Source: Aureispira sp. CCB-E (lineage in GTDB: Bacteria > Bacteroidota > Bacteroidia > Chitinophagales > Saprospiraceae). Taken from it: 64,000 nucleotides of DNA. The translations under genes were made by a program, and so were the position numbers. Of the stretch, positions 3,484 through 64,000 are shown piece after piece. Position 1 is the stretch's first letter. Each line of letters begins with the position of its first letter. The notes beneath the pieces were generated by a model. The model was given only the letters and a program-made list of their open reading frames with translations. It searched no databases and was not told the DNA's origin. Location: positions 2,170,001-2,234,000 of the forward strand of contig NZ_CP133671.1 in assembly GCF_031326345.1 (NCBI RefSeq). Direction: 5' to 3'.

Positions 3484-3680
3484 ATTAGTAGCTTGTTGCT
3501 TTTTTACTTTTTAGTTTGCTATACTCGTAAACAACATTTTTGTATTACTAATACAAGCTTACTGAGCAAAAAGATAAAAAAGTACATTTATATTAGTTTG
3601 ATAATCAGAAGTTTTTTGAAATTGAACGGGGTTTCAACTTGTTGATTATCAATTAAATATTTTTTTCAACAAACTATTGA
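3484..3680. repeat. Dispersed palindromic element, copy A
   Basis: The element sits in the 752-base gap between the helical protein and the small Cys-rich membrane protein. The outer arms are TAGTAGCTTGTTG (left) and TTTTTCAACAAACTATTG (right). The inner arms are TATTAGTTTGATAATCA (3591-3607) and TTGATTATCAATTAAAT (3640-3656). Positions 3567-3607 are identical over 41 bases to 33126-33166 in copy B, which is strong evidence for a mobile or duplicated unit. The outer arms pair less well than in copies B and C. No protein is encoded. Confidence 0.85.
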
Positions 3681-7776: not shown

Positions 7777-7806
7777 TGATATTATTTAATCAGTTTTTGA
7801 AAATAG

Positions 7807-7828
7807 TAGTTAGCAGCACAGCTAACTA
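7807..7828. repeat. Short palindrome, relic of the dispersed element
   Basis: TAGTTAGC, a 6-base loop and GCTAACTA form a perfect 8-bp stem just upstream of the DUF819 gene. The same GCTAACTA end occurs in copies F, E, H and K of the intergenic family. The rest of the 327-base gap 7777-8103 shows no other feature and would carry the two divergent promoters. Confidence 0.55.
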
Positions 7829-8103
7829 TTGAGAAAAGCTTTTTTAAGTCTTTAAAGGTTCTAAGATACATTTTATTCCGTAATCTTTTGGTACTTGTTC
7901 AGTAGTAAGCCCAAGAGAGACTTGGCAAGCTCTACCAAAAAGTAGACATTTCATCCTCTAAAATTTTAATATTCTGTATCTTGTTTTGTAAAAATTGAAC
8001 ATAGATTTTATTAATTTCTGTCGGCTTGTATATAAATGAACTACCTTGTAATTTCCCTTTTTTCAAAGTTGGTGACTTTGTAGGACGTAGCTACTAAAAA
8101 TGG

Positions 8104-15552: not shown

Positions 15553-15605
15553 ATTATTAGTAGTAGTTAGCTGTATTGCTACTGTGCGGTGTTTAGTTCG
15601 TGGAT
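15553..15605. repeat. Dispersed element fragment, copy H
   Basis: ATTAGTAGTAGTTAGC followed by GCTACTGTGCGGTG is the reverse of the AGTAGCA...GCTAACTACTA module seen at 45.6 kb and parallels the fragment at 34364. It lies in the gap between the two GldN-like genes. Confidence 0.5.
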
Positions 15606-32973: not shown

Positions 32974-33091
32974 AATTAAGTATTAATTATAAGTAAGTCG
33001 GTACAGAGAATATAGACTGTATTTCTTAGTATTTAAGTATAAACGACTACTTACGGTTTTGTTTTTACATGATTAATCCAAAGATATTTTC

Positions 33092-33241
33092 TTAATAGTA
33101 GTTCGTTGATTTTTTACTTTTTTACCAAAAAGATAAAAAAGTACATTTATATTAGTTTGATAATCAAAATTTTAACACAAAACACAGCAAAGGTGTAACT
33201 TGTTGATTATCAAACTAATAAAGTTTTTCAACGAACTATTG
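33092..33241. repeat. Dispersed palindromic element, copy B (best-formed)
   Basis: The outer arms are TAGTTCGTTGA (left, near 33099-33109) and TCAACGAACTA (right, near 33228-33238). The inner arms are exact: ATTAGTTTGATAATCAA (33151-33167) and its complement at 33203-33219. It shares 41 identical bases with copy A. It sits between gldC and the glucosaminidase gene and fills most of the 378-base gap; the remaining DNA contains TAnnTTTG-like boxes on minus near 33079 and 33328. Confidence 0.9.
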
Positions 33242-33351
33242 TTCTTAAGTAAGTGGGCAGAAAAAAATATAGCTAAAAAATAGGTTGTTTTTTATATGTT
33301 TTTTCTGAACGATTACTTATCTAACTGCAAAGATAATAAAAGTTTGGCTTT

Positions 33352-34525: not shown

Positions 34526-34698
34526 GTTAATACTCCGTTGATTTTTTAGTTTTTCTACGAACCCGCAGGCTCACGAAGTAAAAACGTAAAAAAGCATCTT
34601 GTATTAGTTTGATTACCAGTCTTTTAGTGTAAAGGTTGGTGAAAATGCATCTTTCTGATAATCAAACTAATACGATTTTTCAACGGAGTAATGATGAG
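34526..34698. repeat. Dispersed palindromic element, copy C
   Basis: The outer arms are TACTCCGTTGA (34530-34540) and TCAACGGAGTA (34680-34690). The inner arms are TATTAGTTTGATTA (34602-34615) and TAATCAAACTAATA near 34659-34672. The module GGCTCACGAAGTAA lies in the left half. Compared with copy B, both outer arms have changed together (GTTCG to CTCCG on one side, CGAAC to CGGAG on the other), so pairing is kept. The 512-base gap 34355-34866 holds this copy, copy G and the htrA terminator. Confidence 0.9.
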
Positions 34699-36550: not shown

Positions 36551-36618
36551 AAATAATAGTTCGTTTAAAATTTTTGTTTTCTATGGAAAAAGGAAAAATT
36601 TCAACAAACGTTCTATAA
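36551..36618. repeat. Possible dispersed element fragment
   Basis: AATAGTTCGTTTAAAATTTT and AAAAATTTCAACAAACGTTC face each other with arms like those of copies A and B, just before the small membrane gene. The match is weaker than the main copies. Confidence 0.35.
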
Positions 36619-37550: not shown

Positions 37551-37698
37551 ATTACTCCGTTGAAACCACGCAGTAGCAGCGCAGCTAACTAAAAGCAAAG
37601 CGCTCACGCAGTAAATCGTATTATTTTATTAGTAGTTTGTTGAAACCACATACAAAGCTCAAGCAACGAGCAAGTAATTAGCAGCACTGCTAACCACT
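37551..37698. repeat. Dispersed element, composite copy E (two units)
   Basis: Unit 1 starts ATTACTCCGTTGAAACCACG and carries AGTAGCAGCGCAGCTAACTA and AGCGCTCACGCAGTAAATCG. Unit 2 starts AGTAGTTTGTTGAAACCACA and ends with TTAGCAGCACTGCTAA. Unit 1 uses the ACTCCGTTGA arm of copies C and D, unit 2 the AGTTTGTTGA arm of copy A. It lies in the 437-base gap before the DUF3298 lipoprotein; the rest of the gap shows nothing else. Confidence 0.75.
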
Positions 37699-44112: not shown

Positions 44113-44151
44113 CAAAGACCACGAAGGTAGCAACGTAGCGAACTATTACTA
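44113..44151. repeat. Dispersed element fragment, copy L
   Basis: GACCACGAAGGTAGCAACGT followed by AGCGAACTATTACTA matches the CCACGAAGTAGCAGCGTAGC module of copy K with small changes. It lies between the PIN-like and DUF2141 genes. Confidence 0.55.
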
Positions 44152-45602: not shown

Positions 45603-45610
45603 CTAACTTC

Positions 45611-45654
45611 AATAGCTCGTTAAAACCACGAAGTAGCAGCGTAGCTAACTACTA
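45611..45654. repeat. Dispersed element, copy K (short, clean)
   Basis: AATAGCTCGTTAAAACCACG followed by AAGTAGCAGCGTAGCTAACT and ACTA gives the clearest short form. It begins with the AATAGTTCGTT arm of copy B and ends in the GCTAACTACTA end shared by F, H and E. Confidence 0.65.
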
Positions 45655-48212: not shown

Positions 48213-48299
48213 GTTAATACTCCGTTGATTTTTTAGTTTTCCTACGAACCCGTAGCGCTCACGAAGTAAACTAATACGATTTTTCAACGGAGTAATGAG
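48213..48299. repeat. Dispersed palindromic element, copy D (internal deletion of C)
   Basis: It has the same outer arms as copy C (TACTCCGTTGA and TCAACGGAGTA) and the same right flank (AAACTAATACGATTTTTCAA), but lacks the inner hairpin: the module AGCGCTCACGAAGTAA joins directly to the right arm. It lies in the 464-base gap before the AraC gene. The rest of the gap shows a TATATTTG box at 48433-48440 and nothing else. Confidence 0.9.
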
Positions 48300-59838: not shown

Positions 59839-62800
59839 TTACCTGAGAAGGGTAATATTCCCTTTCACTTGTTCTGTATGTCCATCTTTAAACAAGACAT
59901 CAGCATACCAAGTATATGTTCCAGAAGGAGCTGGACGACCACGATAGATTCCATTCCATCCTTGTTCTGGTACATTAATCTCCGAGTTGTTGCCCTCAAA
60001 GACCAAAGTTCCCCATCTATCGTACACTCTAAAGATCGTTACGGTCTGAACTTTTGAACCACCTTGAATAAAGAAGTAATCATTCACCCCATCTCCATTT
60101 GGCGTAAAGCCTGTTGGAGCATTCGCTCTTCTTAATTTGGTTACTTCTATCATGACAATACTATCCACTGAACAGCCATTGCTATTTGTTGCTGTAAATT
60201 GATATTGTACCGCATCCTGTGGTCTAATTCCAAAGCTAAAGCTGCTGTCTGTTACCAAGCCCATTGCTCCAGAAATTTGTTGCCAACTGTAAGTCACTCC
60301 TACCGTATCGTTCAAACTAGCTGCTATCGTCAAGCTATCCAAGTATTCGATGGTTGTATCGCCTGTCATACTTGTGATAAAGAATGGATCTGCATCTTCT
60401 ACCACCAACATGGTATCCGCAACACAGCCATTTTCATCTCGAACCGACAAGGTATAAATTCCTGACGCCAAGCCAGAGAAGATATTACCATTTTGCCACG
60501 TACTGCCATCAATACTGTATTCTAACAAACCAACTGTCACTGTTCCTCCTGATCCAAATGCGGTCAAGGTTCCTGTTTGATCCCCTGCACACAATGTGCC
60601 TGTCGTATTGCCTGTAATAGTCAATTCTTCTGGCTCTACGATGGAGATGCTTGTTGTTTCAAAACAACCTCTACTATCGGTCACTGTTACATCATAAGTC
60701 CCTGGTGTCAAATTACTCGCTGTACGTGTTGTCGCACCATTGGACCAATTGTAGTTGTAAGGACTCGTTCCGCCAGTTGCTGTCACTTGTGCAGCTGCAT
60801 TGCCATCTCCATAACACAAGATGCTATTCGTTGAAGCTATGCTCAAGCTAATTGGAGCAGGCTCTGTTATCGTGTAGTTAAACGTTTCTTGACAACCATC
60901 GGCATCCGTTACCGTTACTGTATAATTACCAGCACCCAAGCCTGTCACAGGATTGCTCACCATTCCATTTGACCAGCTGTAATTCACCAATACTTTGTTC
61001 GAACCAGTAATGTTGATGGAACCATCGGTCAAACCATGGCAACTGATGTTGCTCACTGTTTCTGTTACCGTGATGGGCGTTCCTTCTGTTAAGGTTACCG
61101 TTGCCATTGCCGTACAAGCATTGGCATCTGTAACAATTACCGAAATAGCTCCTGCACTCAAATTCGACGCATTTAATCCTACTTGTCCACTTGGATCAGT
61201 CCAAACATAGGTGTAAGGTCCAACTCCACCAGAGGTAGCATTCACGGCAACAGCTCCATTACTTCCTCCAAAACAAGAAACATGTTGTAGAACGGTGGCA
61301 CTAACTGTCAATTCTGTGGGTTCTCCAATTGTACTGGTTAGTTCTAAAGAACAACCATTGGCATCCGTCACGCTTAGGTTGTAGGTGCCTGCGGGTAAAC
61401 TATCGGCAACAACAGTTGTTTGAACCGGTGTGCTATTCCATGCGTATTGATAAGGTCTTGTTCCTCCTGTGATAACCGCTCCCAATTCTCCAGTAGAAGA
61501 ACCGAAACAAAGCGCATTGGCAGCTGTAATATAACCACTCAAAGCATCGTTTGGCTCATTGATGGTAAAGGTATCAATATCAAAACAACCATTGGCATCA
61601 CTGACCGTAACAGTTTGTACACCCGCCGATAAGCCTGTGGCATTCGGGCTATTTTGTCCAGGAGCACCACTCCATTGGAAGGTGTACCCACTCGTTGGTG
61701 TTCCTCCTTGTACTGCCAAGGAGGCTGTTCCATCATTACCACCATGACAAGAAACATCGGTTGTATTAATAATGGTTGCTTGCACAGCGGTTGGTTGTGT
61801 TACTATTGCCGTAGCCATTCCAGTACAGCCATTCGCATCGCTTACCGTAACGACATAAGTACCGCCAGCTAAATTACTCGCTGTTGCCGTCGTTTGACTG
61901 CCTGCCGCAGCATCCCATTGATAGGTGTATGGTCCAACACCACCACTAACGGTGGCTGTCGCACTTCCTGTCCCTTGTCCATTACAAGTGGCAGGAGTTG
62001 TACTGCTGATGGTTGCCAAAACAACCGAAGGTTCACTAATCGTGACGGTTGTTTGTGCCGTACAGTTGTTCGTATCGCTCACCACGACTGTGTAAATGCC
62101 CGCACTCAAACCTGTTGCTGTTGCTGTGGTTTGGTTGCCTGCTGCGGCATCCCATTGATAAGTGTAAGGACTGGTTCCTCCAGTTCCTTGAGCCGTGGCT
62201 GTTCCTGTTGCCGTGCCATTACAACTAGCATCGGTTTGGGCACTAATACTAGCACTTACTGCCGTTGAGGGTTGAGTAATCGTCACACATTCTACATGCG
62301 TACAAGCATTGGCATCGGTGATCGTCACACAATGTACGCCTGCACTTAATCCTATGGTCGTGGCGGCACTGCTACCATTCGACCAACGATACACATAAGC
62401 GGTCAAGCCAATTGGTGTTCCGCCACTACCTTGTGCTGTAGCACTGGTGGTGCCACCAAAACAGTCGATAGGATCAGCACTAATGCTTCCTGTTAGAACG
62501 GTTGGTTCGTTGACATTAAACACCTCCACTCGATCACAACCATTGGCATCGGCTACCGTTACGGAGTAGACGCCTGCTGCTAAACCAGTCGCTGTAGCGG
62601 TTGTTTGAACAGGAGTCGTTGACCAAGTATAGGTATAGTTGCCAACACCACCACTTGGATAAGCTGTCGCACTTCCTGTTGCCGTCCCGTGACAAGAAAC
62701 ATCTGTCACGATAACTGAATCAATTAAAACAGAGTCGGGTTCTCCAATAGAGATGGGCAGTGCAATCTCACAGTTGTTTCCATCTCGTACAAAAACGGTG

Positions 62801-64000
62801 TAAGAACCTGCTCCTAAATTGTTGTAAGTATTGATATTGCTAAAGACATTGCCTGTTTGACCAGGTCCTGTAATTTTATATTCATAACCATTCACTCCTA
62901 AGGTTCCTGTTCCAGGAGTGGCATTGACTAAGATTTGTCCGTTGGCATCTCCATGACACAAGACATCAACAGCGGTGTAGGTGGCTGCTAATTGTACTGG
63001 GTCAGCAATGGTAATGCAAGTATCCATTTGACAACCGGCTACATCGGTGACGGTGACACAATAAGTCCCCGCTACTAAACCATTGATGTTGGCGGTATTT
63101 TGTCCTTGTGGGCTCCAAACATAGCTGTAACCACCACTGCCACCAGCCACAACCACACCAACCGATCCATCGGCAGCTCCGGTACAACTAATGGCAGCAC
63201 CATTGTAGTTGCTTAGAACTTGTGGATTTAATGTGATAGCTGTTGGTTCGGTTAAGACAGAACCTGTGCTCACACTACAACCATTGGCATCGGTTACCGT
63301 TACGGTATGTGCTCCAGCACAAACGTTGGTGGCGATGCTTGTATTTTGTCCGTTGCTCCATTGATAGGTGTAATTTGGTGTTGCTCCTTGTGCATCTACT
63401 TCTATGCTACCATCACAACTTCCATGACACGATGGATTTAGTTGATTGATGATGGCGGCAGTTAATACCGTTGATGGTTCAAAGACCGTAGCACTACCTA
63501 AAATGGTACAACCATTAAAGTCAGTTACAGTTACTGTATAAGTTCCTACTGTTAGATTACTTGCTGTAGCAGTTACCTGTCCACCACTTCCAGTTGATGG
63601 ATCCCATTGATAGCTATATGGGAAGGTTCCGCCAGTAACTAAGGCTGTTACCGAACCATCATTTCCGTTTTTACATTGTACCGAATCTACATCAAATCCT
63701 AGTTGTAAAGCCGTTGGCTCTGTAATAATTACGTTTGCTGTTACGGTACATCCATTGGCATCGGTTACGGTAACACTATGTGTATTGGCATCTAATCCTG
63801 TTGCCGTTGCGGTATTATCTCCATTACTCCAGTTATAAGTATATGCTCCGACACCACCAGTTAGACTAATGGTTGCTTGTCCATTTGAGCCACCAAAACA
63901 ACTCACGTTGATGGTAGAGAAATTGATATTACTAAAGCCTGCTGGTTCGTTCACCTGAATACAAGTATCAACCGTACAACCATTCCCATCGGTAACCGTT
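59839..64000 (-). CDS. Giant SprB-repeat surface protein, C-terminal part (runs off right edge)
   Basis: The frame is open from base 64000 (in-frame codons before 63954 read TVTDGNGCTVDTCIQ), so the visible ~1387 residues are only the C-terminal part. There are 15 complete SprB repeats of 72-85 residues (pattern SCHGxxxGS, GGxxPYTYxWS, ATGLSAGTYTVTVTDANGC, ITEP), an Ig-like segment (DTTIEYLDSLTIAASLNDTV), and a CHU_C T9SS type B domain (APTGFTPNGDGVNDYFFIQG ... GTYTWYADVLF). SprB of Flavobacterium is a mobile surface adhesin used in gliding; this protein probably has a similar surface role. The coding DNA looks richer in G/C than its neighbours, and repeats 8 and 9 are near-copies of each other. 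Confidence 0.93.
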   Translation of the reverse strand, partial: TVTDGNGCTVDTCIQVNEPAGFSNINFSTINVSCFGGSNGQATISLTGGVGAYTYNWSNGDNTATATGLDANTHSVTVTDANGCTVTANVIITEPTALQLGFDVDSVQCKNGNDGSVTALVTGGTFPYSYQWDPSTGSGGQVTATASNLTVGTYTVTVTDFNGCTILGSATVFEPSTVLTAAIINQLNPSCHGSCDGSIEVDAQGATPNYTYQWSNGQNTSIATNVCAGAHTVTVTDANGCSVSTGSVLTEPTAITLNPQVLSNYNGAAISCTGAADGSVGVVVAGGSGGYSYVWSPQGQNTANINGLVAGTYCVTVTDVAGCQMDTCITIADPVQLAATYTAVDVLCHGDANGQILVNATPGTGTLGVNGYEYKITGPGQTGNVFSNINTYNNLGAGSYTVFVRDGNNCEIALPISIGEPDSVLIDSVIVTDVSCHGTATGSATAYPSGGVGNYTYTWSTTPVQTTATATGLAAGVYSVTVADANGCDRVEVFNVNEPTVLTGSISADPIDCFGGTTSATAQGSGGTPIGLTAYVYRWSNGSSAATTIGLSAGVHCVTITDANACTHVECVTITQPSTAVSASISAQTDASCNGTATGTATAQGTGGTSPYTYQWDAAAGNQTTATATGLSAGIYTVVVSDTNNCTAQTTVTISEPSVVLATISSTTPATCNGQGTGSATATVSGGVGPYTYQWDAAAGSQTTATASNLAGGTYVVTVSDANGCTGMATAIVTQPTAVQATIINTTDVSCHGGNDGTASLAVQGGTPTSGYTFQWSGAPGQNSPNATGLSAGVQTVTVSDANGCFDIDTFTINEPNDALSGYITAANALCFGSSTGELGAVITGGTRPYQYAWNSTPVQTTVVADSLPAGTYNLSVTDANGCSLELTSTIGEPTELTVSATVLQHVSCFGGSNGAVAVNATSGGVGPYTYVWTDPSGQVGLNASNLSAGAISVIVTDANACTAMATVTLTEGTPITVTETVSNISCHGLTDGSINITGSNKVLVNYSWSNGMVSNPVTGLGAGNYTVTVTDADGCQETFNYTITEPAPISLSIASTNSILCYGDGNAAAQVTATGGTSPYNYNWSNGATTRTASNLTPGTYDVTVTDSRGCFETTSISIVEPEELTITGNTTGTLCAGDQTGTLTAFGSGGTVTVGLLEYSIDGSTWQNGNIFSGLASGIYTLSVRDENGCVADTMLVVEDADPFFITSMTGDTTIEYLDSLTIAASLNDTVGVTYSWQQISGAMGLVTDSSFSFGIRPQDAVQYQFTATNSNGCSVDSIVMIEVTKLRRANAPTGFTPNGDGVNDYFFIQGGSKVQTVTIFRVYDRWGTLVFEGNNSEINVPEQGWNGIYRGRPAPSGTYTWYADVLFKDGHTEQVKGNITLLR

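Follow-up and report, generated by a model that had tools for sequence, protein, structure and literature searches.

Miniature inverted-repeat transposable elements (MITEs) of bacteria, as outlined in PMC10969869, are small, AT-rich and non-coding, combine terminal inverted repeats with direct repeats, reside between genes and fold strongly. QMITE2 of Coxiella, with 7-9-bp repeats and 23-29-bp ends, is one of those described there (PMC10969869). The 146-nt element reported here shares these general properties. It was found in the window, by which we mean the whole 64,000-nt stretch of DNA that was analysed (G000:C1:2170001-2234000), from the genome of Aureispira sp. CCB-E (Saprospiraceae; here G000 or the own genome, 7.39 Mb in two contigs). 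One of the window's proteins is 100% identical to a protein of Aureispira sp. CCB-QB1, with 99.67% DNA identity over 12.4 kb. Compared with the MITEs in that account, the Aureispira element stands apart by its conserved inner hairpin, its hypervariable loop and its plug-in palindromic modules, and by the lack of an identified partner insertion sequence (IS). Taken together, the conserved hairpin, the free loop and the plug-in palindromes that it shares make it a variant of the MITE kind. The main text of PMC10969869 contains no word beginning with Bacteroid. No paper on transposable elements in Aureispira was found in the open-licence literature, though they may have been described elsewhere, and none was found there on repetitive extragenic elements in Saprospira.

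By analogy, the systems that appear to behave most like the one in Aureispira are the pneumococcal BOX elements and the GC clusters of yeast mitochondria. According to the description in PMC3049150, BOX elements are likewise composite, their outer parts surrounding inner modules that are optional and differ from copy to copy and from strain to strain. BOX mainly varies the number of one tandem module (boxB), whereas the Aureispira element, compared here by description only, has several modules in different places, one of them common to another MITE family. The mechanism of the GC clusters, as presented in PMC4478555, is likewise unsettled. These clusters are organellar and have no known relation to the Aureispira modules, which ride in an element of MITE type that mostly makes 6-bp duplications. 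Repetitive extragenic palindromes (REPs), their paired form REPIN and the REP-associated tyrosine transposases (RAYTs), as described in PMC3733652 and PMC2817692, likewise involve palindromes of 20-40 nt in high copy number, but the Y1 transposase of that system was not found in four of the five Aureispira genomes that carry the element.

The 146-nt element is very probably a lineage-specific, non-autonomous transposon of MITE type that carries GC-rich palindromic modules, the combinations of which most likely spread by recombination or conversion. This reading draws on the ends, the duplications, the empty sites, the copy number, the subfamilies and the paired changes, all of which were observed directly. 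The seed is a complete forward-strand copy at 33096-33241 of the window (profile E 2e-37; orthologous copy L120 in the related genome G062). Its terminal inverted repeats of 14 nt, TAGTAGTTCGTTGA (33096-33109, pairs conserved by double changes) and TCAACGAACTATTG (33228-33241, by end comparison and folding), are identical at 12 of 14 positions in subfamily A. Comparison of the flanks reveals a 7-bp target duplication, TTCTTAA, at 33089-33095 and 33242-33248. The ends enclose a weak hairpin of a T-tract and an A-tract (hairpin 1, CTTTTT-TACC-AAAAAG, 33117-33132, recognized by eye) and a strong hairpin of 18 bp with a loop of about 35 nt (hairpin 2, arms 33150-33167 and 33203-33220, from folding and paired changes). 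The folding program prefers a longer alternative to hairpin 1, the register of which differs between subfamilies. Element positions 74-110 (33169-33205, the last of them overlapping the 3' arm) are hypervariable, with 15% departure against about 1% elsewhere. No open reading frame (ORF) of at least 80 aa crosses the seed.

Evidence for mobility comes from duplications and from empty sites. In a set of 60 copies from the window and from own, G062, G061, G063 and G067 DNA, the direct repeats measure 6 bp in 36 copies, 7 bp in nine and 5 bp in six, and are missing in nine. Among 88 two-ended copies of the own genome, 70 have a duplication of 5-7 bp, against 2.0% when the right flanks are dealt out among the copies, and the duplications are 86% A+T. 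G062 is a draft genome of the same species in 180 contigs, which was compared with G000 over two stretches in synteny that align for about 740 kb and diverge by 0.47%. In these stretches, four full elements (three of subfamily A, one of B) are present in G062 where the target is undivided in G000, with 6-bp duplications at the G000 sites 3643426, 3800738 and 3831475 and a 5-bp duplication at 6372994. The B copy at 3831475 fails an ungapped test for an empty site because of an adjoining 2-nt length difference; alignment shows the site to be empty. Smaller forms differ in the same way: a 45-nt mini-element is inserted in G062 at 3822524 with a 6-bp duplication, and a 24-nt palindrome with the outer bases CAATAG..CTACTA with a 4-bp duplication. 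Altogether, the repeats account for many of the intergenic insertions and deletions that distinguish the two genomes.

The element is abundant, at an estimated few hundred copies per genome. BLAST with the seed gave at least 131 matching pieces in the own genome, in at least 40 places (the best 40 of 459 candidates were scored), and with up to three mismatches the left end occurs 81 times and the right end 59 times, against 0 for reversed patterns. A profile built from 75 distinct 146-nt copies, applied to 864 kb of own DNA that comprised the window and two stretches of 400 kb, matched 57 loci, and none in the reversed sequence. This extrapolates to about 490 copies per genome, a figure that may be somewhat high since the stretches were chosen for facing large contigs with several copies; the density in the window is similar (4 in 64 kb). 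By a simple ORF model, 83% of this sequence is coding, although only one of the 57 loci lies mostly inside an ORF. The carriers G000, G061, G062, G063 and G067 all belong to Aureispira. Versions in G062 are nearly identical, those in G063 and G067 have about 75% identity, and those in G061 are more distant; G021 and G065 gave two weak matches each, G064 and G066 none. A search of 61 genomes at the family level matched eight, the own genome and seven with short stretches (best E 1.7e-5), which were taken as chance. So was a 49-nt stretch in two Spiroplasma plasmid records (E 9e-3), and phages gave no match.

The subfamilies differ at both ends in step (TAGTTCGTTGA/TCAACGAACTA, TACTCCGTTGA/TCAACGGAGTA and TACTTCGTGG/CCACGAAGTA), and divergent ones from other species preserve the pairing through two-sided changes. 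In 18 diverse copies, 11 of 32 pairs are altered on both sides, seven of the 11 in the inner hairpin, hairpin 1 having been excluded because its register shifts. Of all cells, 92.7% are paired, compared with 23-55% in slid controls. The count of 11 exceeds a shuffled mean of 7.5 and is reached in 9 of 500 shuffles, while the number of pair types is not extreme (reached in 88 of 500). The covarying ends could reflect a single transposase that reads both. The covariation of the inner hairpin cannot be explained in this way, unless the hairpin also serves for binding or template switching corrects it.

Such pairing could also mean that the element is a structured RNA, a riboregulator or bidirectional terminator, that has been selected at many genes and for which mobility is secondary. 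The seed folds extremely well as RNA (-43.6 kcal/mol, z -8.0, none of 200 shuffles as good), the length is nearly constant across species (144-147 nt, mostly 146) and the location is intergenic, all of which, like the paired changes, would suit an RNA. However, the fold as DNA is extreme too (-30 kcal/mol, z -6.9, again none of 200 shuffles). RNA hairpins, one of the options in the sequence-only reading, are conceivable in no more than the weak sense of strong folding, as RNA and as DNA alike, and there is no Rfam match at gathering thresholds in the window. The contexts of 56 elements (10 convergent, 19 divergent, 27 tandem) roughly follow the share of intergenic length in each class (11%, 34% and 55%), with no clear bias of the terminator type. 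The balance of G.T against A.C in the stems of 76 copies of exactly 146 nt is only weakly lopsided, and it was not used as a strand test. A primary RNA function is thus improbable.

The loop varies within each subfamily. Among the 48 of the 60 copies that are exactly 146 nt long (25 A, 11 B, 12 C), positions 74-110 depart from the consensus by 15% (A), 14% (B) and 16% (C) per copy, and the remainder by 0.3-1.4%. The changes show an ordinary transition bias (118 of 142 in subfamily A; genome background ratio 3.69). One copy, L269, is a chimera, with its left half from subfamily C and its right half from B. Hypermutation of the loop was considered and is not claimed. A first set of seven ortholog pairs differed by 5.4% in loops, 0.8% in stems and 0.6% in flanks; with 16 of 30 pairs found, the counts were 19/571 sites in loops, 12/1740 in stems and 83/17968 in flanks. 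Without the pair L013 the loop differences drop to 11/534, and draft misassembly or conversion could explain them.

Many copies are longer than 146 nt. In the 88-copy set their lengths cluster at 166-169, 179-182, 201-207, 223-224 and 246 nt, and the additions are GC-rich units of 18-34 nt (CCACGnAGTAGCAGCGnAGCTA; CTGCGnAGCACTCACGnAGTAA; CCCGnAGGCTCACGAAGTAA; AAAGCGnAGCGCTCACGAAGTAA; CTAAGCTTGCG..GAGCGTAGCGAACTAA). Modules are present in 48 of the 88 copies; the set mixes 864 kb not picked copy by copy with selected loci (best matches, which are module-poor, IS neighbourhoods, and unpaired ends, which are module-rich), and its module frequencies therefore do not equal those of the genome. The modules recur at a few positions: in the gap that separates hairpin 2 from the right terminal repeat, within hairpin 1 or next to it, and on the 3' side of hairpin 2, in its arm. 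For the three commonest modules, any pair occurs in all four combinations of presence and absence. When two mismatches are allowed, the counts of the 22-nt module are 380 in G000, 392 in G062, 77 in G061, 196 in G063 and 130 in G067, and it is absent from the Aureispira genomes G021, G064, G065 and G066; the backward control pattern gave 0 everywhere. It is also found in two copies of an unrelated MITE (AAGTAATCGTTC..GAACGATTACTT), at 6224053 and, with one mismatch, at 3669885, and a third stretch of this MITE, in G062, reads through without it.

Within the two aligned stretches, 18 strain differences of module size (18-40 nt) lie inside repeats, a count that excludes shorter differences, the insertion of 24 nt and the unclear cases 3697003 and 6586777. 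Two elements each show a joint difference of two modules between the strains (3646275 with 3646401, and 6459257 with 6459397). Because two modules change at once in these elements, and because L269 is a chimera, conversion between copies or draft misassembly very probably plays a part in the module differences. It is even possible, if on the whole somewhat doubtful, that the modules never move alone and are parts of an older, longer element, lost and regained by deletion, conversion or misassembly of the draft. Their fixed positions, the joint differences, the chimera, the ortholog pair L013 with its 13 differing sites, and the fact that in 14 of the 18 differences the module is present in G000 only would all fit. 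The two occupied copies of the unrelated MITE, together with the stretch of that MITE in G062 that lacks the module, speak against it.

The sequence of the 22-nt module points to a small hairpin. Its two n positions, each the middle of C-GNA-G, depart from the commonest base in 32/57 and 27/57 matches (up to three mismatches outside the two n), the other positions in at most 11/57. GNA loops with any N, closed by at least two G-C pairs, are described as unusually stable DNA mini-hairpins (PMC4686876). Among 65 matches to the module with up to four mismatches, the loop reads GNA in 51. The original work on GNA mini-hairpins is reportedly that of Hirao and Yoshizawa. Stem positions 14 and 20, next but one to the second loop, form a standard pair in 58 of the 65, compared with 0-11 for slid partners, and show six double changes (five from G-C to C-G, one from G-C to A-T); the small hairpin is therefore real as pairing. 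In G061, 10 of 23 two-mismatch rows are by eye double changes of the same pair (six C-G, four A-T). A strict GNA loop is another matter: the loop G is A in 11 of 65 matches, n is nearly constant in the second module (6 copies) and in the fourth (7 copies), ACGNAGT contains a single G-C pair, and the mini-hairpin is not favoured by standard folding parameters. Of the GCxyzGC sequences between genes, 16% have GNA in the middle, against 4% of those in coding DNA, which mostly restates the abundance of the modules. A special DNA stability of the modules is a testable idea only. It is conceivable, though unlikely, that the 18-34-nt modules are mobile C(GNA)G mini-hairpins which, folded and single-stranded, enter the loops and junctions of other palindromes at AA/TA steps, so that the MITE grows by nesting. 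They would then be the bacterial equivalent of the GC clusters of mitochondria and rank with the smallest known mobile DNAs.

Several points weigh against the MITE interpretation, the first being the outcome of the search for a partner. The Pfam family DDE_Tnp_1 has 42 matches in the own genome, which fall into eight groups by ORF length; seven multi-copy groups have other ends, and the eighth is a single copy of 269 aa whose ends were not resolved. Four matches to rve are without the ends of the element, and DDE_Tnp_1_3 has none. Y1_Tnp is also absent from the own genome (5 of 14 control genomes were positive). An autonomous element with these ends, which the sequence-only reading had suggested looking for, was not found in four transposase families, nor in some 0.9 Mb from the own genome, many IS families being outside this search. 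Furthermore, no duplication flanks 18 of the 88 sampled copies. Within the two stretches, every full copy specific to one strain belongs to the draft genome, and no full copy of G000 faces an empty site in G062. In an inverted repeat, template-switch correction can also produce paired changes in the absence of selection, and the strain differences in modules could partly be draft-assembly error inside repeats.

Individual candidates for a partner were rejected. The 427-aa DDE_Tnp_1 group has ends that match a different, 254-bp MITE. A search for CAATAG..CTACTA-like ends, 700-6000 nt apart and with 6-7-bp duplications, gave 24 candidates, a figure that covers five sequence sets and in part counts one locus in two strains; none of the candidates has longer matching ends on both sides. 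The pairing of left and right ends left many ends unpaired; for 18 of the 20 that were fetched, the opposite end lies no more than about 320 nt away, and most of these are module-lengthened copies. No right end was seen at L309, and L294 (4987081/4988079) is a duplicated gene segment of 998 bp. This direct duplication (G000:C1:4987081 and 4988079) includes the gene start MKKSIGIIPARYASTRFPGKPL and the upstream region, and the gene is one that we take to resemble a sugar-nucleotide synthetase such as KdsB.

In an alternative reading, a Y1 transposase of the RAYT type would move REP- or REPIN-like palindromes as single strands. The modules, being short, GC-rich, palindromic and present in hundreds of copies, would fit this, and several junctions of module insertions are, by eye, ambiguous by 1-3 bases, which also fits a fixed short target. 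The letters GTAG, which could bear on the GTAG/CGTC tag rule for palindromes of 20-40 nt, occur inside the 22-nt module. Yet beyond the own genome, Y1_Tnp is also missing from three of the four other carriers, with one match in G067, and full elements make duplications of 5-7 bp, which to our knowledge Y1 transposition does not. The REP-like alternative with a tyrosine transposase, entertained by the sequence-only reading, is thus very improbable, whereas its non-autonomous mobile family is borne out by target duplications, by empty sites in a genome of the same species, and by copies across genome and genus.

For the MITE-type transposon, a mechanism may be sketched as follows. A transposase supplied in trans, most likely of the DDE type, would move the 146-nt non-coding unit and any DNA with these ends. 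It would cut AT-rich, nearly always intergenic DNA with a stagger of 5-7 bp, usually 6, and leave the duplication. The conserved inner hairpin would presumably be needed for transposition, with the loop free to drift. The mini-elements of 45 and 24 nt retain hardly more than the ends. Exchange between copies, by recombination or gene conversion, is the likeliest way in which the module combinations spread. A first arrival of the modules, as in an unrelated MITE, lies beyond conversion and requires insertion of the unit itself.

Aureispira thus holds a sizeable and recently active repeat system. The G000/G062 pair, 0.47% apart, makes it possible to trace insertions, conversions and changes of modules. 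Should the modules move on their own, mobile DNA would include hairpins of about 20 nt, and movement of the GC-cluster kind could be studied in a bacterium. In any case, the insertions and deletions linked to the repeats matter for the annotation and assembly of Aureispira genomes.

The dispersed palindromic family proposed from the window letters comprised 12 places and perhaps two more, 14 in all. That they share modules beyond chance holds: none of 100 dinucleotide shuffles reaches the counts for the 26-nt module (up to three mismatches, 3 matches against 0.00 expected), CGCTCACGAAGTAA (up to two, 4 against 0.22), TAGTTCGTTGA (up to one, 7 against 0.97), ATTAGTTTGATAATCA (up to two, 6 against 0.23) or GAGCGTAGCGAACTA (up to two, 4 against 0.01). 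The intergenic location is also right, as the window has 78 ORFs of at least 80 aa and none of them reaches into any of the 14 places. The 41 identical bases reported 29.6 kb apart at 3484 and 33092 lie within repeat D11 (57 nt, 89%, spacing 29,559). Copies are not limited to the window, and the similarity persists on alignment. The 14 places are not a single family, however. The 146-nt profile matches four of them, 3484 (3564-3679), 33092 (33096-33241), 34526 (34528-34693) and 48213 (48268-48297), and four of the 14 have a target duplication of at least 5 bp. Several of the others are GC-rich palindromic modules of 18-34 nt, or mini-elements composed of such modules.

On the forward strand, place 3484 is an old subfamily A copy with extra DNA inside (3486-3676) and without an exact duplication. 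Place 34526 is a subfamily B element of 166 nt (34528-34693) with ATGAGT on both sides, and its 20-nt insert is the module CCCGCAGGCTCACGAAGTAA (34562-34581) inside hairpin 1, absent from other B copies. The match at 48213 is the end of an 83-nt deletion copy of subfamily B (48215-48297, duplication AGAAGT). Place 45611 is a 45-nt mini-element with element-like ends on the reverse strand (45610-45654), with the 22-nt module at 45626-45647 and a 5-bp duplication; it is of the type inserted specifically in G062. Place 7807 is a 28-nt palindrome with element-like ends, TAGTAGTTAGC..GCTAACTATTG (7804-7831, forward), without an exact duplication of at least 5 bp. Places 748 and 37551 carry GC-rich modules: a forward-strand mosaic at 748-862 has the 22-nt type at 798-823 (three mismatches) and CGCTCACGAAGTAA at 777-790, and another at 37551-37696 combines a B-type right end with the 22-nt module (37566) and CGCTCACGCAGTAA (37601). 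Places 31731 and 44113 hold part of one GC-rich module, at the latter the fragment CAACGTAGCGAACTA (44131-44145, forward, by pattern search). Fragments are seen at 15553 and 34364, by eye and with the TAGTTCGTTGA pattern, and the single short matches at 36551 and 59692 are too weak to claim.

Other mobile elements came to light in passing. A second MITE-like family (AAGTAAGTGGGCAG..CTGAACGATTACTT) directly adjoins the seed (33247-33322 of the window) and occurs also at G000:C1:6224008 and 6354278; a 176-bp relative is strain-specific, being inserted in G062 at G000:C1:6462446. The 254-bp element (CAGCGGTTCTAACGATAAACGG..) is inserted in G000 only, at G000:C1:6298993 and 6580096. Its ends resemble those of the 427-aa IS (CAGCAATTCTAACGAT), and it is probably the MITE of that IS. 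An IS of 1.45 kb (458-468-aa DDE transposase, ends CATGAGTCATCCCGAATTT) stands in G000 at C1:3718245, 6394985 and 6437593, in all three differences exactly in place of a terminator-like hairpin of 26-32 nt that G062 has kept. The hairpins, two perfect and one imperfect, differ in sequence, and the IS seems to target and replace terminator-like hairpins. An insertion of 22 kb (G000:C1:3578821-3601173), absent from G062, contains by eye recombinase-like, methyltransferase-like and ATPase-like ORFs and looks like an integrated phage or similar element. Finally, an ORF of 1371 aa in the window (59839-63954) contains repeats spaced by about 230 nt (repeat families D2-D8) and probably encodes a repetitive surface protein.
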